A DNA stretch of 64,000 nucleotides from Flavobacterium difficile (GTDB taxonomy: Bacteria > Bacteroidota > Bacteroidia > Flavobacteriales > Flavobacteriaceae). The position numbers were made by a program, and so were the translations under genes. Positions 35,369-64,000 of this stretch are shown here, one piece after another; the first letter of the stretch is position 1, and every line of letters begins with the position of its first letter. Location: positions 1 to 64,000 of the forward strand of contig NZ_JAAJBT010000002.1 of assembly GCF_011392115.1 (NCBI RefSeq), read 5' to 3'. Under the pieces are notes generated by a model. That model was not told the origin of the DNA. It made no database searches and worked only from the letters and a program-made list of their open reading frames with translations.

Positions 35369-35373
35369 TCGAA

Positions 35374-35437
35374 AGTAAAAAGTAAAAAGTAAAAAGTAAA
35401 AATAGTATTTTTTAAGTTCAATATTTAGCTTTTTACT
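35374..35437. repeat. Four AGTAAAA heptamers with one inverted copy
   Basis: AGTAAAA occurs four times in perfect phase (35374-35401). After about 29 bases an inverted copy TTTTACT follows at 35431-35437, inside the last codons of the convergent symporter gene. The pair can fold into a long A/U hairpin and may act as a terminator. AGTAAAA is also a member of the heptamer arrays in the polysaccharide cluster, so this is a miniature of the same array-plus-inverted-end layout. Confidence 0.65.
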
Positions 35438-43911: not shown

Positions 43912-43920
43912 ATTTGGGAA

Positions 43921-44224
43921 GTGGAGACTTTGAGAAGAGGAGACTTTGAGATGGGGAGACTTTAGGAAGGTGAGGCTTTGAGAAGGTGAGACTTTGAGAA
44001 GGTGAGACTTTGGGAAGGTGAGACTTTGAGATGGGGAGACTTTGGGAAGGTGAGACTTTGGGAAGGTGAGACTTTGGGAAGGTGAGACTTTGGGAAGGTG
44101 AGACTTTGAGAAGTGGAGATTTTGAGAAGGTGAGACTTTGAGAAGGTGAGACTTTGGGAAAGGGAGACTTTGAGATGGGGAGACTTTGGGACATGGACGT
44201 TTTGAAAAAGAGATTTTGAGATTG
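43921..44224. repeat. 16-nt tandem repeat array, 19 units
   Basis: Nineteen units of 16 bases run from 43921 to 44224 without an indel; the consensus is GGTGAGACTTTGGGAA with variants such as GGGGAGACTTTGAGAT. The last two units are degenerate. The array fills the whole ugd to four-helix-bundle gene interval. All three antisense frames are open and give repetitive peptides, which I do not regard as genes. Confidence 0.95.
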
Positions 44225-44240
44225 AAAAATTGATAAAAGA

Positions 44241-44615
44241 ATGGCAAAAATTAGTACGCATAAAGATTTAAGAGTTTATCAATTGGCTTTTGAGCTAAGT
44301 ATGAAAATTTATAAAGTTTCGAAAAGTTTTCCTGTTGAAGAAAAATATTCATTGACAGATCAAGTTCGAAGAAGTTCTCGTTCTGTTTGTGCTAATTTAG
44401 CAGAAGCATTTAGAAAAAGAAGATATCCAAAGAACTTTGTGTCTAAATTATCTGATTGTGAAGCAGAAGCTGCCGAAACTCAAGTTTGGTTAGATTTTGC
44501 ATTAGAATGTGAATATATTGATAATGAATTCTATAATGAGATTTATAAACAATACGATATGGTATTAGGAATGTTAGTAAATATGATTGTTGAACCTGAA
44601 AAATGGAGTATTTAA
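44241..44615 (+). CDS. Four-helix-bundle protein (23S rRNA IVS-like), type A
   Basis: A 124-residue protein of the four-helix-bundle family (TIGR02436/PF05635 type, known from ORFs in 23S rRNA intervening sequences and related in fold to the Avd protein of diversity-generating retroelements). Visible: HKDLRVYQLAFELSMKIYKVSK, then LTDQVRRSSRSVCANLAEAFRKRR and a long third/fourth helix ending MLVNMIVEPEKW. It is basic in the second helix and may bind nucleic acid; no molecular role is proven. It follows the 16-nt array and overlaps the next gene by one base. It is only distantly similar to the two other such proteins in this window. Confidence 0.88.
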   Translation: MAKISTHKDLRVYQLAFELSMKIYKVSKSFPVEEKYSLTDQVRRSSRSVCANLAEAFRKRRYPKNFVSKLSDCEAEAAETQVWLDFALECEYIDNEFYNEIYKQYDMVLGMLVNMIVEPEKWSI

Positions 44616-56061: not shown

Positions 56062-57182
56062 TTATTTTAATTAATTGTTCCAACTTAAAAGTTGGTGGTG
56101 GTTTGCAGGTAGCACATTCGTTTTTATATGAAATTAAAACTAATGTGGAACACCAATTTATTGTAGTTTTGTCCGATTTTTTAAAGTACCAAATCGATCA
56201 AACCGAATTTCCAGATAACTTTAAGTTTTTTCATTATTCTATAAAGCCTTCTGCCTACAAAGCTATTTTTGGTACTGATAAATTCCTGTCTGATCTTGAA
56301 GATAAATATAATCCTGAAGTGGTTTTTTCTGTTTTTGGACCTACATATTGGCAACCAAAAGCGAAACACATTTGCGGATTTGCAAAACCAGATTATATTT
56401 ATAAAAATTCTCCTTATTTTAAACAACTTTCACTCTTTCAAAAAGTTAAGTTGAAAGCTAAGGAGTTTTTCCATATGTTCGATTTTAGAAATAATAACGA
56501 AGGTTTAATAACAGAAAGTACTGATGTTACTAAAATTCTTCAAGAAAAAGTGACTCAGAAAGTACACACCGTTACAAATTATTACAATCAAATTTTTGAA
56601 AATGAATCACTTTGGGATAAAAAAGTAGTCCTAAATGAAGCTGAAGATACTATTAAATTACTGACTATTTCTGCCAATTATCCACATAAGAATTTAGGAA
56701 TAATTAAAAAAGTAATTCCTGTTTTAAAAGAAAATTTTCCAGAATTTCAATTCAAGTTTTTTCTTACGATTGATAGAAACGAATTTGGAATTTCAGAATC
56801 TGATTCTTTAAATCAAAATATAGAATTTTTAGGTAAAGTGTCAATTAAACAATGTCCAAACCTATATTCTCAATGTGATTTCTTATTTTTACCCACTTTG
56901 TTAGAATGCTTTTCCGCATCGTATTGTGAAGCTATGTTTATGCAAAAACCAATTTTGACATCCAACTTATCATTTGCAACAGGAATTTGTGGAAAAGCCG
57001 CGTCTTATTTTGACGCAATTGATGCAGAAGATATTGCTAATAAAATTGTAGATTTAGCTTCAAGTTTAACGCTGCAAAAACAACTTATTGAAAATGGCTT
57101 ATTACAACTTAAAAGCTTTGATACGGCTAAAGTTAGAGCGCAAAAATATTTACAAATAATCACATCAAAAGATGAAAATTAA
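56058..57182 (+). CDS. Glycosyltransferase family 4
   Basis: A 374-residue GT-B enzyme beginning IILINCSNLKVGGGLQVAHSFL, a glycine-rich N-terminal motif typical of this group. The donor domain has LTISANYPHKNLGIIKKVIPVL and LPTLLECFSASYCEAMFMQKPILTSN. It overlaps capE by 11 bases. Substrate unknown. Confidence 0.87.
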   Translation: MIILINCSNLKVGGGLQVAHSFLYEIKTNVEHQFIVVLSDFLKYQIDQTEFPDNFKFFHYSIKPSAYKAIFGTDKFLSDLEDKYNPEVVFSVFGPTYWQPKAKHICGFAKPDYIYKNSPYFKQLSLFQKVKLKAKEFFHMFDFRNNNEGLITESTDVTKILQEKVTQKVHTVTNYYNQIFENESLWDKKVVLNEAEDTIKLLTISANYPHKNLGIIKKVIPVLKENFPEFQFKFFLTIDRNEFGISESDSLNQNIEFLGKVSIKQCPNLYSQCDFLFLPTLLECFSASYCEAMFMQKPILTSNLSFATGICGKAASYFDAIDAEDIANKIVDLASSLTLQKQLIENGLLQLKSFDTAKVRAQKYLQIITSKDEN

Positions 57183-58215
57183 AGACAAAATATTATTAAT
57201 AACTGGTGGAACGGGTTCTTTCGGAAACGCGGTATTGAGTCAGTTTTTACTTACCGATCATTTTAAGGAAATTCGAATTTTAAGTCGTGATGAAAAAAAA
57301 CAAGACGATTTAAGAAAAAAAGTCAATAACAATAAAGTAAAATTTTATCTGGGCGATGTTCGTGACGCACAAAGTATAGACGCAGCAATAAAAGGTGTTG
57401 ATTATATTTTCCACGCAGCCGCTTTAAAGCAAGTGCCTTCTTGTGAATTTTTTCCCATGGAAGCCGTAAAAACCAATATCATTGGAACAGATAATGTATT
57501 GACCATCGCAGAAAAGTACGAAGTAAAAAAAGTAGTGGTACTAAGTACAGACAAAGCCGCTTATCCTATCAACGCAATGGGAATGTCGAAAGCAATGATG
57601 GAGAAAGTGATGGTTGCCAAATCTCGTAATTTAGACGATACTAAAACAATTTTTTGTGGTACTAGATACGGAAATGTTATGGCATCTCGTGGTTCAGTGA
57701 TTCCTTTGTTTGTAGACCAAATGAAAGCAGGTAAACCCATTACGATTACCGATCCAAATATGACACGTTTTATGATGACTTTGGAAGACGCAGTAGATTT
57801 GGTGCTTTACGCTTTTGAAAATGGTAATCAAGGCGATTTATTCGTGCAAAAATCTCCAGCTTGTACCATTGAAGTTTTAGCAAAAGCTTTAAAATCACTT
57901 TATAATGCTAACACAGAAATTAAAATAATCGGTACACGTCATGGGGAAAAATTATTCGAAACTTTAGTGAATCGAGAAGATATGGTTAAAGCGGAAGATT
58001 GTGGTAATTATTTCAGAATTCCTGCAGATAATAGAGATTTAAATTACGAACAATATTTTTCTGAAGGTGATGTGCAAGTAACAGAATTAGAAGAATATCA
58101 TTCTCATAATACAGCTATTTTAAACGTGGAAGAAATGAAACAATTATTGTTGAAATTACCTTTAATCAGAAAAGATATTTACGGAGAAGAAATTAATAAA
58201 TATTTTGATTTGTAG
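57172..58215 (+). CDS. capE: UDP-GlcNAc 4,6-dehydratase/5-epimerase (CapE-like)
   Basis: A 347-residue SDR enzyme of the CapE/WbjB/FlaA1 group: ITGGTGSFGNAVLSQFL, HAAALKQVPSCEFFPMEAVKTN, VVLSTDKAAYPINAMGMSKAMMEK (catalytic Met-x-x-x-Lys variant), TRYGNVMASRGSVIPLF and ITDPNMTRFMM. It performs the first step of UDP-L-FucNAc synthesis, and is followed by capF and a wecB/capG-like gene. Its stop codon is followed at once by a heptamer array. The cytosolic membrane-anchor of FlaA1 long forms is absent. Confidence 0.9.
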   Translation: MKIKDKILLITGGTGSFGNAVLSQFLLTDHFKEIRILSRDEKKQDDLRKKVNNNKVKFYLGDVRDAQSIDAAIKGVDYIFHAAALKQVPSCEFFPMEAVKTNIIGTDNVLTIAEKYEVKKVVVLSTDKAAYPINAMGMSKAMMEKVMVAKSRNLDDTKTIFCGTRYGNVMASRGSVIPLFVDQMKAGKPITITDPNMTRFMMTLEDAVDLVLYAFENGNQGDLFVQKSPACTIEVLAKALKSLYNANTEIKIIGTRHGEKLFETLVNREDMVKAEDCGNYFRIPADNRDLNYEQYFSEGDVQVTELEEYHSHNTAILNVEEMKQLLLKLPLIRKDIYGEEINKYFDL

Positions 58216-58216
58216 A

Positions 58217-58405
58217 AGAACTAAGTGGAAAGAGCCAAGTGGAAAGAGCCAAGAGCCAAGTAGAAAGAGCCAAGTGAAAAGAGCCAAGAGCCAAGAGCCA
58301 AGTGAAAAGAGCCAAGAGCCAAGAGCCAAGTAGAAAGAGCCAAGAGCCAAGAGCCAAGTAAAAAGTGAAAAGAGCCAAGTGAAAAGAGCCAAGAGTCAAG
58401 TAAAA
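58217..58405. repeat. Heptamer array B, 27 units, forward
   Basis: Twenty-seven in-phase heptamers, mostly AGAGCCA with AGTGGAA, AGTAGAA, AGTGAAA and AGTAAAA interspersed. No base insertion or deletion breaks the phase. It begins two bases after the capE stop and ends 32 bases before the start of the four-helix-bundle gene. The antisense frames encode a hydrophobic low-complexity peptide, not considered a gene. Confidence 0.97.
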
Positions 58406-58437
58406 GTTAAATATAAGCCATATAAAATGTATTGAAA

Positions 58438-58785
58438 ATGAGACAAAATGATTTGTTAGACAGAACTTTTAATTTTGCAGTTGCAGTTTTAAAATTTTTA
58501 AGAACCATTGAAAGTTTACCTGAAAGTAATCTTATCAGATATCAACTTGGAAAATCGTGTACTTCAGTTCGAGCGAATTATGAAGAATCTCAAGCAGGTT
58601 CATCAAAAGCAGATTTCCTTAATAAAGTTAAAATTTCATTAAGAGAAGCTAGAGAATCAAATTATTGGTTAAGAATTATTAAGGCATTAATCGAGAAAGA
58701 AAATATAGAATTAAACAATTTATTACAAGAAAGTCAAGAATTGAAAAAAATATTAGGAGCAATCGTAAACCATTCAAACAAATAA
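58438..58785 (+). CDS. Four-helix-bundle protein (IVS/Avd-like), type B
   Basis: A 115-residue protein of the four-helix-bundle family. Visible: LLDRTFNFAVAVLKFLRTIESLPESNLIRYQLGKSCTSVRANYEESQAGSSKADFLNKVKISLREARESNYWLR, with conserved polar positions of the second and third helices, and the C-terminal helix ending IVNHSNK. Its sister at 61598 is close. Between the two, 30 codons (58588-58677) differ by seven synonymous and one conservative codon change, implying selection on the protein. Start at ATG 58438 by comparison with the sister (ATG 61598). Role unknown; nucleic-acid binding is inferred from the family. Confidence 0.9.
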   Translation: MRQNDLLDRTFNFAVAVLKFLRTIESLPESNLIRYQLGKSCTSVRANYEESQAGSSKADFLNKVKISLREARESNYWLRIIKALIEKENIELNNLLQESQELKKILGAIVNHSNK

Positions 58786-58810
58786 TAAATGAAGCAACTC
58801 ATTACTTTTC

Positions 58811-58845
58811 GAGAACTTGTTTCTTTTTACTTTTTACTTGACTCT
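58811..58845. repeat. Inverted heptamers after type B gene
   Basis: About five in-phase heptamers in the opposite orientation: GAGAACT, TGTTTCT, TTTTACT, TTTTACT, TGACTCT. In reverse complement they read AGAGTCA, AGTAAAA, AGTAAAA. They end nine bases before the capF start. Confidence 0.85.
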
Positions 58846-58853
58846 TTATAATT

Positions 58854-59969
58854 ATGAAAATAGGAATCACAGGCCAAGACGGTTTCGTAGGCAAACATTT
58901 ATACCATACATTAGGATTATTTCCAGATGAATTTCAACGTGTCGAATTTCAACGTAATTTTTTCGAATCGGAAAGTGATTTGGATCAATTTGTTTCACAA
59001 TGTGATGTAATTGTCCATTTAGCGGCTATGAATCGTCACGAAAGTCAGGAAGTAATTTATGAAACGAATGTGAATTTGGTTCAAAAATTAGTGGCTTCTT
59101 TAGAAAGAACAAATTCGAAACCACATGTTTTAGTTTCTTCTTCTAGTCAGGAAGAACGTGATAATTTATACGGAAAATCAAAAAAAGAAGGCAGAGAACT
59201 ACTTGCCAATTGGGCTAATAAAAATGAAGCTGTTTTTACAGGTTTAGTAATTCCAAATGTTTTCGGACCTTTCGGGAAACCTTTCTATAATTCGGTTGTA
59301 GCCACATTTTGTTATCAAGTTTCTCACCATGAAACTCCGAAGATTGCTATAGATGGCGATTTAAAATTGATTTATGTAGGCGAATTAGTAGAAGAAATCA
59401 TCCAACAAATCAGAACCCAAAAGCATCAGTCAAAACTAGAAATTTCTCATACTTCTGAAAAGAAAGTTTCTGAGATTTTAGCTTTATTACAACAGTATAA
59501 AACGGAATATCAAGACAAAGGAAGTATTCCCACTTTAACATCAACTTTCGAATTAAATTTATTCAATACGTACAGATGTTATATGGATATTGCCACTCAT
59601 TTTCCAGTAAAATTAACGCAACACACCGATAGCAGGGGAAGTTTTGTAGAAATTATTCGGTTGGAAGTGGGCGGACAAGTGTCCTTTTCCACCACTGTTC
59701 CAGGAATAACAAGAGGCAATCATTTTCATACCAGAAAAATTGAACGTTTCGCCGTAATTAAAGGAAAAGCTCTAATTCAATTGAGAAAAATTGGAACGGA
59801 TGAGGTTTTAAACTTTGAATTAAATGGAGACGAACCGGCTTATGTGGATATGCCCATTTGGTACACACATAATATCAAAAATATCGGTGATGATATGTTA
59901 TATACGAACTTTTGGATCAATGAATTTTTCAATCCAAATGATGCTGATACGTATTTTGAAGTGGTTTAA
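58854..59969 (+). CDS. capF: UDP-2-acetamido-2,6-dideoxyhexose reductase/epimerase CapF
   Basis: A 371-residue bifunctional enzyme. N-terminal SDR domain: GITGQDGFVGKHLYHTL, HLAAMNRHESQEVIYETNV, SSSSQEE, the catalytic LYGKSKKEGRE, and VIPNVFGPFGKPFYNSVVATFC. C-terminal cupin domain with GNHFHTRKIERFAVIKGKA. CapF carries out the 3-epimerisation and 4-reduction in UDP-L-FucNAc synthesis (CapE-CapF-CapG). The order capE, capF, wecB-like is preserved although each junction is interrupted by repeats. Confidence 0.93.
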   Translation: MKIGITGQDGFVGKHLYHTLGLFPDEFQRVEFQRNFFESESDLDQFVSQCDVIVHLAAMNRHESQEVIYETNVNLVQKLVASLERTNSKPHVLVSSSSQEERDNLYGKSKKEGRELLANWANKNEAVFTGLVIPNVFGPFGKPFYNSVVATFCYQVSHHETPKIAIDGDLKLIYVGELVEEIIQQIRTQKHQSKLEISHTSEKKVSEILALLQQYKTEYQDKGSIPTLTSTFELNLFNTYRCYMDIATHFPVKLTQHTDSRGSFVEIIRLEVGGQVSFSTTVPGITRGNHFHTRKIERFAVIKGKALIQLRKIGTDEVLNFELNGDEPAYVDMPIWYTHNIKNIGDDMLYTNFWINEFFNPNDADTYFEVV

Positions 59970-59970
59970 A

Positions 59971-60194
59971 AGAGCCAAGTGAAAAGAGCCAAGAGCCAAG
60001 TAGAAAGAGCCAAGTGGAAAGAGCCAAGTGGAAAGAGCCAAGTGGAAAGAGCCAAGTAGAAAGAGCCAAGAGCCAAGAGCCAAGAGCCAAGTAGAAAGAG
60101 CCAAGTGAAAAGAGTCAAGTTAAAAGAGCCAAGAGCCAAGTGAAAAGAGTCAAGTAAAAAGAATCAAGTACAAAGAGCTAAGTAAAAAGTGATA
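59971..60194. repeat. Heptamer array C, 32 units, forward
   Basis: Thirty-two in-phase heptamers of the AGAGCCA/AGTRRAA type (224 bases) starting one base after the capF stop codon. No phase slip. No gene follows before the inverted end at 60222. Confidence 0.97.
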
Positions 60195-60221
60195 AAATAA
60201 TAAAAGTGTAGTTATTATAAA

Positions 60222-60256
60222 CGAAACTTTTTACTTTTAACTTTTGCCTTGGAGCT
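60222..60256. repeat. Inverted heptamers before wecB
   Basis: Five in-phase inverted heptamers (CGAAACT, TTTTACT, TTTAACT, TTTGCCT, TGGAGCT), 27 bases after array C and 13 before the wecB ATG. They form the right end of a gene-less element. Confidence 0.8.
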
Positions 60257-60269
60257 TAAAAAAAGATAT

Positions 60270-61406
60270 ATGAAAAAACTAAAACTAGTAACAGTAGTAG
60301 GAACGCGACCAGAAATCATTCGTTTGTCGCGAGTAATGGCGGCTTTGGATGCTTCTGAAGCGATTGAGCATATTTTGGTGCATACCGGACAAAATTACGA
60401 TTACGAATTAAATCAAATCTTTTTTGACGATTTAGGGATTCGTAAACCCGATTATTTTTTAAATGCTGCTGGAAAAACAGCTACGGAAACAGTTGGGCAA
60501 ATTTTAATTACAATCGATCCGCTTTTAGACGAAATTCAACCGGATGCTTTTTTGGTATTAGGTGATACGAATAGTTGTTTGTGTGCGATACCTGCAAAGA
60601 AACGTCAAATTCCGATTTTCCACATGGAAGCTGGAAATCGTTGTTTTGATCAGCGAGTGCCTGAAGAAACGAATCGTAAAATTGTTGATCATATTTCTGA
60701 TGTGAATTTAACGTACAGCGATATCGCTCGTGAATATTTACTTCGTGAAGGTTTGCCTGCTGATAGAATTATCAAAACTGGTTCGCCCATGTTTGAAGTT
60801 TTGAATCATTATTTACCAAATATTCAAGCATCTGAAATTTTATCTACTTTAAATCTAGAAAAAGGAAAGTATTTTGTTGTGTCTTCGCATCGTGAAGAAA
60901 ATATCAATAATCCAGAAAATTTTAATGGTCTAATTGAAAGTTTAAATCAAATTGCCGAGAACTATAAGTTGCCAATTATCGTAAGCACGCATCCACGAAC
61001 TCGTAATAAAATTGAAAGTGAAAAGGTTAAAGTTCGTGAACAAATTCAGTTTTTAAAACCCATGGGATTCAACGATTACAATGCCTTACAAATGCACGCT
61101 TTTGCCGTATTGTCAGATAGTGGAACGATTTCAGAAGAATCTTCGATCTTGAATTTTCCAGCCTTAAATATTCGTCAAGCACACGAACGACCTGAAGCGA
61201 TGGAAGAAGCATCTGTCATGATGGTCGGACTTTCGCCTGAAAGAATCATGCAAGGCTTAGTACAATTGCAATCGCAAAAAACAGGTTCAGAACGAAATTT
61301 CCGCCCAGTAGCCGATTATTCGATGCCTAATGTTTCTGAAAAAATGGTTCGTATCATTTTGAGTTATACGGATTATGTGAACCGAGTGGTGTGGAGTAAG
61401 AAGTAA
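60270..61406 (+). CDS. wecB: UDP-N-acetylglucosamine 2-epimerase family (CapG/WecB-like)
   Basis: A 378-residue non-hydrolysing 2-epimerase: KLVTVVGTRPEIIRLSRVMAAL, LVLGDTNSCLCAI, HMEAGNRCFDQRVPEETNRKIVDHISD and SDSGTISEESSIL. In this context (capE, capF upstream) it is the CapG/WbjD-type enzyme completing UDP-L-FucNAc; WecB (UDP-ManNAc) is the alternative. The ATG at 60270 was chosen over a TTG at 60249 that lies in the inverted repeat. The stop codon is overlapped by the first heptamer of array D. Confidence 0.92.
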   Translation: MKKLKLVTVVGTRPEIIRLSRVMAALDASEAIEHILVHTGQNYDYELNQIFFDDLGIRKPDYFLNAAGKTATETVGQILITIDPLLDEIQPDAFLVLGDTNSCLCAIPAKKRQIPIFHMEAGNRCFDQRVPEETNRKIVDHISDVNLTYSDIAREYLLREGLPADRIIKTGSPMFEVLNHYLPNIQASEILSTLNLEKGKYFVVSSHREENINNPENFNGLIESLNQIAENYKLPIIVSTHPRTRNKIESEKVKVREQIQFLKPMGFNDYNALQMHAFAVLSDSGTISEESSILNFPALNIRQAHERPEAMEEASVMMVGLSPERIMQGLVQLQSQKTGSERNFRPVADYSMPNVSEKMVRIILSYTDYVNRVVWSKK

Positions 61407-61580
61407 GAGCCAAGTAAAAAGAGCCAAGTGAAAAGTGTGAAGAGCCAAGTGAAAAGAGCCAAGTAAAAAGTGAAAAGAGCTAAGTGAAAAGTGAAAAGAG
61501 CTAAGTGAAAAGTGAAAAGAGCCAAGTAAAAAGTGTGAAGAGCCAAGTTAAAAGAGCCAAGTTAAAAGAGCCAAGTACTA
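61406..61580. repeat. Heptamer array D, 25 units, forward
   Basis: Twenty-five in-phase heptamers (175 bases), starting at the last base of the wecB stop codon. It has more AGTGAAA and AGAGCTA variants than the others. It is followed by TAAATAT...GCCA, which resembles the sequence between array B and its four-helix gene. Confidence 0.97.
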
Positions 61581-61597
61581 TAAATATTTGCCAAGCA

Positions 61598-61948
61598 ATG
61601 AAAGAAAACGATTTATTAAAAAGAACATTTAATTTTGGGGTTGACTGTTTGAAATATTTGAGAAAATTAGAAACAAATCCTGAGAATAATTTGGTGAGAT
61701 TTCAATTAGGGAAATCATGTACTTCAATTGGTGCAAATTACGAAGCGTCTCAAGCAGGTTCTTCAAAAGCTGATTTTATAAACAAAGTAAAAATTTCTTT
61801 AAGAGAAGCTAGAGAATCTAATTATTGGTTAAGAATTTTAAAGGAATTAACTGAAAATAAAGATATTCAACTTGAAATTTTAATTCAAGAAAGTAAAGAG
61901 ATAAAAAATATTTTAAGCGCAATTGTAAATCATTCAAATAAAAAATAA
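61598..61948 (+). CDS. Four-helix-bundle protein (IVS/Avd-like), type B sister
   Basis: A 116-residue sister of the protein at 58438: LLKRTFNFGVDCLKYLRKLETNPENNLVRFQLGKSCTSIGANYEASQAGSSKADFINKVKISLREARESNYWLR and the same IVNHSNKK end. The C-terminal helix region (about 80-105) is more divergent between the two. The ATG at 61598 is used; a longer ORF from 61505 would translate array D and is rejected. It is flanked left by array D and right by inverted heptamers, the same layout as the type B element. Confidence 0.9.
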   Translation: MKENDLLKRTFNFGVDCLKYLRKLETNPENNLVRFQLGKSCTSIGANYEASQAGSSKADFINKVKISLREARESNYWLRILKELTENKDIQLEILIQESKEIKNILSAIVNHSNKK

Positions 61949-61980
61949 CTTATGAAACAAAACATGGAAAACAAGTATCT

Positions 61981-62051
61981 TTTTACTTGTCAAAAACTTG
62001 GCTCTTTTTACTTTTCAAAAACTTGGCTCTTTTTACTTTTTACTTGGCTCT
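61981..62051. repeat. Inverted heptamers after the type B sister gene
   Basis: Seven exact inverted heptamers (TTTTACT and TGGCTCT). The first 50 bases are two copies of a 25-base unit in which the heptamers are separated by an 11-base insert ending CAAAAACT. The block ends eight bases before the start of the next gene. Confidence 0.9.
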
Positions 62052-62058
62052 TCATAAT

Positions 62059-63276
62059 ATGAAACTTATTTTCCTTGCTTTAGCTTATCCTAAAATTCCT
62101 AGTTCGAGTAATTTATATACCGATTTGATGGAAGCATTTCGCGATCAAGGTCATGACGTTTTTGTGGTGGCACCAGCTGTAAGTGATAATGAAGTTGGCT
62201 TGATTCAGGAAGAGGGTATTCAGGTTATTCGTGTAAAAACACTTCCGTTATTAAACGTAAATCCAATTCAAAAAGGAATTGCGAATGTGTTGTTGCCTTT
62301 TCAATATAAAAAAGCGATTAAAAAATATTTCAAATCTGAAGCTTTAGATTTGATACTTATGCCAACGCCACCAATAAGTTTAGTTGATGTGGCGAGTTGG
62401 TTAAAAAAGAACTATCAATCGAAATTGTATTTGATTTTAAGAGATATTTTTCCACAAAATGCTGTCGATTTAGGTATGATGAAGAAAGGTGGAATGTTAT
62501 ACAATTTCTTTCGAAAAAAAGAACATTTATTATACGAAGTGGCTGATGAAATTGGCTGTATGTCGCAAGGAAATATCGAATATGTAATTCACCATAATGC
62601 AAATGTTTCCACTGAAAAATTACATTTATTACCGAATTGGCAAAAAGAAATTCCACAATTTTCTGATGATGTAATTGCTTTAAGAACCAAATACAGTTTT
62701 GATGATAATTTCGTGATTATTTTTGGTGGAAATATTGGTTTGCCTCAAAAGTTAGAAAATATATTAGCAGTTGCCGAATTGTTTCAACCTGAAGATAAAG
62801 TCTTGTTTTTTATCGTAGGTCAAGGAACGGAGAAAGCGAAAATTGAAAAATTAATAAAAGAAAAAAACCTTAAAAACATTGTCATTAAGAATTCTTTACC
62901 TCGTGAAGATTATCAAAATATTATTTCAGTAGCCAATTGTGGTTTGATTGCTTTACATGAAAATTTTACCATTCCGAATATTCCATCCAAATCGTTGAGT
63001 TATTTCAATGCTAAAATTCCCGTTTTAGCAGCCATTGATGAAAATACAGATTACGGAACCATTATTCAAGATGAAGTAAAAGCTGGAGTTTGGGCACCTT
63101 CCAACCAACCCAATCTAATCAAAGAAAAAATTGATTTATTGCGTTCAAATCCGCAACTTTGTAAACAAATGGGAGAAAATGGGTATCAGTATTTTATCAA
63201 TAATGTGACACCTAAACATAGTTATGAGATTATAAAGAGGCAAGTGGGAAGTGGAAAGAGCCAAGTAAAAAGTTAA
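62059..63276 (+). CDS. Glycosyltransferase family 4, WbuB/FucNAc-transferase-like
   Basis: A 405-residue GT-B enzyme. MKLIFLALAYPKIPSSSNLYTDLMEAFRDQGHDVFVVAP resembles WbuB-type L-FucNAc transferases; donor-domain features are IIFGGNIGLPQKLENILAVAELF and ALHENFTIPNIPSKSLSYFNAKIPVLAAI. Location directly after the UDP-L-FucNAc genes supports that donor. Start at ATG 62059, since a longer reading would translate inverted repeats. The last residues (QVGSGKSQVKS) are encoded by the first heptamers of array E, so the native C-terminus seems to have been replaced or extended. Confidence 0.87.
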   Translation: MKLIFLALAYPKIPSSSNLYTDLMEAFRDQGHDVFVVAPAVSDNEVGLIQEEGIQVIRVKTLPLLNVNPIQKGIANVLLPFQYKKAIKKYFKSEALDLILMPTPPISLVDVASWLKKNYQSKLYLILRDIFPQNAVDLGMMKKGGMLYNFFRKKEHLLYEVADEIGCMSQGNIEYVIHHNANVSTEKLHLLPNWQKEIPQFSDDVIALRTKYSFDDNFVIIFGGNIGLPQKLENILAVAELFQPEDKVLFFIVGQGTEKAKIEKLIKEKNLKNIVIKNSLPREDYQNIISVANCGLIALHENFTIPNIPSKSLSYFNAKIPVLAAIDENTDYGTIIQDEVKAGVWAPSNQPNLIKEKIDLLRSNPQLCKQMGENGYQYFINNVTPKHSYEIIKRQVGSGKSQVKS

Positions 63277-63480
63277 AAGAGCCAAGTAAAAAGTTAAAAG
63301 AGCCAAGTAAAAAGTTAAAAGAGCCAAGTAAAAAGGATCAAGAGCCAAGTGGAAAGAGCCAAGTAGAAAGGATCAAGAGCCAGGTTAAAAGAGCCAAGTA
63401 AAAAGTAAAAAGAGCCAAGTAAAAAGGAGCAAGAGCCAAGTTAAAAGAGCCAAGTAAAAAGTAAAAAGAGTTAAGCAATA
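63236..63480. repeat. Heptamer array E, 35 units, forward
   Basis: Thirty-five in-phase heptamers (245 bases exactly). The first six lie in or at the 3' end of the glycosyltransferase gene. The last heptamer (AGCAATA) supplies the A of the ATG of the following sugar transferase gene. Types include AGTTAAA and AGGATCA as well as the usual ones. Confidence 0.97.
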
Positions 63481-64000
63481 TGTATTCAAAAATAGTAAAA
63501 CCAATTTTAGATTTTCTACTTGCTGTGATGGGATTTATTATCCTTTTGCCAGTATTTCTATTGGTGACTGTTTTGTTGTTTTTTGCGAATCAGGGAAAAC
63601 CGTTTTTTATTCAACGTCGTCCTGGAAAAAACTGTGAAGTATTTTCAATTATCAAATTCAAAACCATGAATGATAGAAAAGATGCTTCAGGAAAATTATT
63701 ACACGATTCGGAGCGCTTAACGGCTGTTGGTAAGTTTGTTAGAAAAACCTCTTTAGATGAAATTCCACAATTGTTGAATGTCATAAAAGGGGATATGAGT
63801 ATTATTGGTCCTAGACCCTTATTAACTGATTATGTACATTTGTATAACGAATACCAAAATCAACGACATACAGTTAAACCAGGCATTACTGGTTGGGCTC
63901 AAGTGAATGGGAGAAATGCGATTTCTTGGGAAAAAAAATTCGAATTAGATGTTTTTTATGTACATCATATTTCATTGGTTTTAGATGTGAAAATTTTACT
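63480..64000 (+). CDS. Sugar-phosphate transferase (PglC/WbpL-like), cut by window end
   Basis: The first 173 residues of an initiating glycosyl-1-phosphate transferase of the bacterial sugar transferase family. A membrane segment (LDFLLAVMGFIILLPVFLLVTVLLFFANQG, about residues 10-40) is followed by the conserved PFFIQRRPGKN, KFKTMND, the catalytic SLDEIPQLLNVIKGDMSIIGPRPLL and PGITGWAQVNGRN. It links the first sugar to undecaprenyl phosphate, so it likely starts repeat-unit assembly. The 3' end lies outside the window. The start codon is formed in part by array E. Confidence 0.92.
   Translation, partial: MYSKIVKPILDFLLAVMGFIILLPVFLLVTVLLFFANQGKPFFIQRRPGKNCEVFSIIKFKTMNDRKDASGKLLHDSERLTAVGKFVRKTSLDEIPQLLNVIKGDMSIIGPRPLLTDYVHLYNEYQNQRHTVKPGITGWAQVNGRNAISWEKKFELDVFYVHHISLVLDVKIL

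Follow-up and report, generated by a model that had tools for sequence, protein, structure and literature searches.

The window, by which we mean the whole stretch of 64,000 nucleotides analysed here from the genome of Flavobacterium difficile, contains two elements of the same layout, B (58216-58846) and D (61405-62052), whose components are listed in Table 1. In both, an array of forward heptamers precedes a small gene, and heptamers of the same kind follow it in the opposite orientation, forming terminal inverted repeats. The unit consists of AAG and four variable bases. Element B lies between capE and capF; the neighbours of the two elements match PF02719 and PF14667, which fit capE and capF, and PF02350 (UDP-GlcNAc 2-epimerase). 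Its arms are unequal, with 27 forward units facing five inverted ones. The only open reading frame of at least 80 aa between the arms is a gene of the S23/IVS family, and the element carries no transposase. A search of positions 56500-64000 against Rfam returned no match up to an E-value of 0.5, and the site is the capE/capF junction, not a 23S rRNA helix. The anatomy proposed in an earlier note on this DNA is confirmed: array B, a 115-codon Avd/IVS-like gene (115 aa) and five inverted heptamers lie in a row between capE and capF, and array D (25 forward units, 24 of them within 61405-61576) with its own 115-aa gene and inverted units ending at 62052 repeats the arrangement. The sequences of both also support the note's view of an element-like unit ending in the same heptamers in opposite orientation.

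Table 1. Heptamer and related arrays, and S23/IVS-family genes, in the window.
Feature	Position	Strand	Remarks
Period-16 (2 x 8) array A	43913..44188	+	in front of third S23/IVS-family gene
Third S23/IVS-family gene of the window (L002)	44241..44615	+	short octamer run past stop
Forward heptamer array B	58216..58404	+	27 consecutive AAGNNNN units, directly after capE stop codon
S23/IVS-family four-helix-bundle gene B	58438..58785	+	115 aa; PF05635, TIGR02436
Inverted heptamers closing element B	58812..58846	-	five units
Gene-less forward array C	59970..60193	+	32 units, between capF and epimerase gene
Inverted heptamers of gene-less element C	60223..60257	-	five units
Forward heptamer array D	61405..61579	+	25 AAG units in register
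S23/IVS-family gene D	61601..61948	+	115 aa; 72% identity to B
Inverted heptamers closing element D	61978..62052	-	left limit approximate
Gene-less forward array E	63235..63475	+	33 AAG sites in register

What is the protein enclosed by these arms? In the profile search, proteins B and D both score above the thresholds for PF05635 (23S rRNA-intervening sequence protein) and TIGR02436, protein B with 54.7 bits (cut-off 33.8) and 74.1 bits (cut-off 24), respectively. The AlphaFold model (pLDDT 94.1) comprises four helices and is matched in Foldseek by 2RLD and 2GSC, entries of five chains each. Avd of the diversity-generating retroelements (4DWL), itself a four-helix fold, is a weaker match, with a TM-score (TMq) of 0.72, an E-value of 0.086 and about 12% sequence identity; unlike Avd, proteins B and D have no adjoining PF00078 reverse transcriptase. 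The assignment to an Avd/IVS-like four-helix bundle is supported by both profiles, by 2RLD and, weakly, by Avd itself, and a resemblance between PF05635 and Avd is also stated in a passage of PMC10053308. The PHROGs collection gave no match, and a phage search gave two weak tblastn matches. In PADLOC, a type I restriction specificity subunit model shows a weak and partial match to protein B (E 0.0005), confined to the C-terminal part of the model (345-440 of 470).

Heptamer arrays are by no means restricted to the two elements. The pattern (AAGNNNN)x4-AAG has 638 matches in the 2.95-Mb genome of F. difficile, the highest number among the genomes counted, and the arrays lie far above chance because the reversed-pattern control has 23. 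By hand count, AAG is at least 90% fixed and the other four positions are variable in nine of the 11 AAG-type arrays, which reach up to 66 units; the remaining two have two positions at least 90% fixed. Short-period arrays of any kind number 87 in 464 kb, 53 of them intergenic, compared with 16 in a shuffled copy, and arrays lacking a gene are dispersed through the genome. The same genome holds nine S23/IVS-family genes (ten rows, two of which are apparently one broken gene). For the third gene of the window, L002, the arms fail the shuffle test. Family genes that are interrupted by stops or apparently frameshifted (L005, L009/L010) retain short repeats nearby, and their arms failed this test as well.

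The combination of family gene and complementary flanks recurs widely. The S23/IVS family is present in all 41 genus genomes searched and in at least 114 of 148 phylum genomes. From a larger total we analysed 178 oriented loci, comprising nine from F. difficile itself, 30 from the genus, 80 from a scan of named genomes (many of them MAG contigs that may be mislabelled), 30 from the phylum, 15 from three genomes of relatives and 14 out of 24 plasmid records; these samples favour family members with high scores. Short or N-bearing flanks removed ten loci from the comparison with control ORFs and seven from the shuffle test. Measured against a control set of 298 ORFs from the same loci, complementarity of the arms lies above the 95th percentile in 141 of 168 loci and above the 99th in 99 (some of the counts derive from printed fractions), and it exceeds all 50 shuffles in 128 of 171 loci, the other 43 not standing above their shuffles. 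By sample, the loci above all shuffles are 6/9 (own genome), 23/29 (genus), 63/74 (scan), 15/30 (phylum), 10/15 (relatives) and 11/14 (plasmids). In 92 of 168 loci the arms rank each other within the best 5% of all possible partners. The best period is 7 in 89 and 8 in 13 of the first 119 loci. The expectation of the earlier note that flanking arrays recur around homologues of the protein holds for the mirror-image character of the flanks; it is weaker for tandem periodicity alone, which among 168 loci exceeds the 95th control percentile in only 93 of the upstream and 46 of the downstream flanks (from fractions of 0.554 and 0.274). The unit differs between loci and matches between the arms of one locus, and both the end sequence and the period vary widely. 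Inspection by eye of the plasmid loci reveals the layout in Cyanobacteria, a spirochaete and a chloroflexote, and more weakly in a clostridium. On three cyanobacterial plasmids the S23/IVS gene lies between cas2 and cas1 (L204, L205) or before cas1 (L216), and at L209, L211, L214 and L217 it is found among methylase, helicase or restriction-modification genes. The mirror-image flanks around most of the family genes examined suggest that a selfish kind of DNA element, akin to the sequences inserted in some rRNA genes, is widespread.

The unit also follows the protein from site to site. Among 173 loci, arms taken from different loci match one another if their proteins are similar, even where the neighbouring genes differ: for loci with different neighbours the median cross-arm score is 16.5 at protein identity of at least 60% (631 pairs), 11.5 at 45-60% (2411 pairs) and 9.0 below 45%. 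Protein identity and cross-arm score are correlated with a Mantel r of 0.448, the maximum of 999 permutations being 0.092. Of 138 loci, 82.6% share their period with their closest relative at a different site, compared with at most 81.2% under shuffling, and among 25 loci with a period other than 7 only nine do so; the tendency of the period to follow the clade appears positive but modest. In six of 17 clusters of at least three loci sharing their neighbours the arms covary at the 5% level or better, one of these clusters being the site before ndpA described below; 11 do not, four of them pointing in the opposite direction. We propose that an element and its unit are inherited and propagated jointly. 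The further possibility that a cognate gene controls the abundance of AAG arrays is unsupported. Close relatives of gene B (E <= 1e-20) occur in two of 61 genus genomes; one of the two (G023) has few AAG matches, 29 vs 17 in the control, and G309, which lacks a close relative of gene B, has 140 vs 10, its five S23/IVS genes sharing no more than about 20% identity with B and D.

These observations bear on the reading in which the arrays are ordinary intergenic repeats or hairpins, grown by slippage and spreading alone, with the gene as a chance passenger. The arrays do outnumber the genes, as the 87 short-period arrays attest, AAG arrays are found in a genome that has no close relative of gene B, and the junction of array E holds about three units in G309 vs 33 in F. 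difficile. A chance passenger, however, would hardly be surrounded in most loci by arms matching well beyond those of other ORFs, nor would the unit be linked to the protein at different sites. We consider this reading unlikely.

Comparison of gene junctions shows presence of the elements in some genomes and absence in others. For capE-capF, a match to capF was found in 28 of 199 genus genomes and 19 loci were inspected, including that of F. difficile. In G309 and G311, where capE is 90-94% and capF 87-89% identical, the junction is empty, with stop and start codons overlapping. In 15 other loci capE lies 443-666 nt from capF with, as judged by eye, another gene between them, and one more locus has no capE on its contig. 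The earlier note had looked to empty sites in close relatives as a mark of mobility, and at capE-capF they are seen in both G309 and G311. The two empty relatives and the overlapping codons suggest that the element was gained at this junction, the alternative being loss. At the junction between capF and the epimerase gene, G309 has no insert, G311 a small hairpin lacking a gene, and F. difficile the long array C. The junction before ndpA was located in 60 of 61 genomes, and tblastn places a family gene there in 23 of the 60; five of these matches lie 76-254 nt away from ndpA and may be decayed. The remaining 37 genomes have hairpins lacking a gene, no feature recognisable by eye or, in G193, masked bases. 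In the 21 genomes with usable arms at this site, a genome's own arms score 17.76 vs 12.86 for exchanged ones, a difference reached in none of 2000 shuffles.

Could the elements be transposon-like? Under this alternative the inverted ends would be iterated DNA sites bound by the S23/IVS protein, and a host transposase or recombinase would move the element. Inverted ends and empty sites fit such a process, the gene-less arrays could be MITE-like, and the complementarity of the arms resembles shared unit identity more than RNA pairing. In some pairs at different sites, for example among L029, L031 and L187, DNA homology begins about 40 nt before the start codon and ends about 30 nt after the stop codon, an extent corresponding to arms and gene; over 806 matches between elements with different neighbours the median extents are 0 and -30 nt, that is, the gene alone. 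Against this stand the lack of a transposase in the element and of a clear target-site duplication by eye at the capE-capF junctions, whose flanks are too diverged for one to be called, as well as the highly variable end sequence and period. The strand preference of the long arrays, described below, would also be unexpected for a purely DNA-based process. We hold a transposon-like nature to be rather unlikely.

Long AAG arrays (at least three pattern matches, counted by hand) between co-directional genes have AAG in sense orientation at all 16 sites (17 rows), and those between convergent genes directly follow the co-oriented stop codon in four of four cases, the sites on contig C1, in G309 and in G311 being taken from among the matches listed. 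Short runs of one or two matches between co-directional genes are sense in two cases and antisense in nine, and the inverted arms of B, C and D account for three of these nine. Further AAG rows fall within ORFs or between divergent genes. The sense bias of the long arrays points to a process linked to RNA or transcription.

One such process would be reverse transcription. A retroelement that encodes no reverse transcriptase might be assisted by a resident one, much as Avd assists in diversity-generating retroelements; the weak structural match to Avd and the sense bias speak for it. The locus itself holds no reverse transcriptase, and the only PF00078 match of the genome lies on contig C3, the window being on C2. 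A resident reverse transcriptase as a requirement is not supported, since 18 of 41 genus genomes lack a PF00078 match (the only profile used, and several assemblies are incomplete) and all 41 carry the family. Genomes without PF00078 average 4.4 family matches and those with it 5.8, computed by hand among the matches listed. This explanation is very improbable. The suggestion of the earlier note that mobility would need outside help agrees with the absence of a transposase from the element; a need for a resident PF00078 reverse transcriptase is not supported.

A further alternative concerns folding of the transcript. The arms would be kept for an RNA stem that is cut by RNase III, the element leaving the transcript as the intervening sequences of 23S rRNA do. 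Element D folds with its gene in the loop far better than shuffles (z -7.2), and the covariation of the arms at the ndpA junction points in the same direction, as does the RNase III excision reported for Coxiella and other intervening sequences (PMC4990558). The fold of element B, however, is no better than shuffles (z -0.03), and the forward arm of B greatly exceeds the inverted one in length. Arm mismatches compatible with G-U pairing are not in excess, with 161 vs 187 in 146 loci (p 0.18) and 64 vs 92 when one locus per cluster is taken (p 0.03, in the wrong direction). The matching of the arms therefore looks like shared unit identity and not like selected base pairing. The transcript structure envisaged by the earlier note, with the gene looped out between complementary arms, is borne out for D and not for B, and the mismatches carry no G-U signature. 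We regard maintenance of the arms for an RNA stem as quite unlikely.

We consider it reasonably probable, if short of assured, that B and D belong among the small selfish elements of IVS (S23-protein) type but reside at gene junctions and not inside 23S rRNA, with a unit probably read by their own protein. Forward array, S23/IVS gene and inverted array would together make up one element. The 7-nt unit, an invariant triplet with a free spacer of 4 nt, would most likely be the recognition site of the oligomeric four-helix protein encoded within, read once per unit, and the gene-less arrays would be derivatives that arose by deletion or spread in trans. TRAP is a ring protein that recognises, in RNA, a short core motif recurring at even intervals. 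By analogy, although the TRAP protein is unrelated, a similar mode of binding would explain the combination of triplet and free spacer. We infer that the protein binds the unit on sense RNA, that paired arms may be processed by RNase III and that the element moves.

The closest known counterparts are the intervening sequences of 23S rRNA in Coxiella and Leptospira, with which B and D share the S23 family and an ORF between complementary ends. As described in PMC4990558, the Coxiella sequence is a selfish element that contains an S23 ORF, is closed by a terminal stem of 28 bp and is excised by RNase III; it bears three tandem GACAGAT heptamers before the start codon, or two in some strains, and according to that paper its S23 protein is probably not expressed. 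B and D differ in their position at mRNA gene junctions, in forward arrays of dozens of units and in the presence of dispersed gene-less arrays. The STRR repeats of Cyanobacteria are likewise tandem heptamers at gene junctions. Arrays of this kind (TAACTGA) at gene junctions of Cyanobacteria and Bacteroidetes, with indels in steps of 7 nt and relatives devoid of them, were surveyed by MacGregor 2015 (PMC4679880), according to whom no transfer mechanism was evident. The arrays described here resemble them as tandem heptamers at gene junctions and differ in their association with S23/IVS genes and with inverted arms; the main text of that paper uses none of the terms 23S, intervening sequence or four helix. 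Within the PMC open library searched, we found no paper linking the S23/IVS family to arrays outside rRNA.

The elements have a wider significance. A common family annotated as 'four helix bundle protein' or S23 gains a matched putative nucleic-acid partner, testable gene by gene, and the dispersed heptamer repeats, for which the 2015 survey (PMC4679880) saw no transfer mechanism, gain a possible source. The intervening sequences of rRNA would find their place within a larger class of gene-junction elements. It is possible, if doubtful, that the S23/IVS (Avd-like) family forms the core of a cross-phylum class of self-spreading short-period-repeat elements, in which ring proteins would read their own triplet every 7-9 nt, the arrays would serve as both landing platform and ends, and the gene-less arrays would be satellites. 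If true, such a class would account for the heptamer repeats seen in Cyanobacteria and Bacteroidota and bring them together with the rRNA intervening sequences.

Several further arrays deserve mention. In G022 a short AAGC-type heptamer run occupies the same place in four near-identical repeats (L331-L334); recent transposition was considered for the four identical copies and rejected, as they sit in long repeats that appear by eye to be rRNA-operon (tRNA-23S) spacers. Four adjacent arrays of ACTTCTA-type heptamers lie within about 900 nt on contig C2 of F. difficile (448570-449489), a region with no called ORF of 100 aa. In the window, a short gene-less run of AAAGTAA repeats (35372-35402) begins 3 nt past a stop codon, and the glycosyltransferase ORF ending at 63276 runs into array E (63235-63276), so that the tail of its protein is made of translated heptamers.
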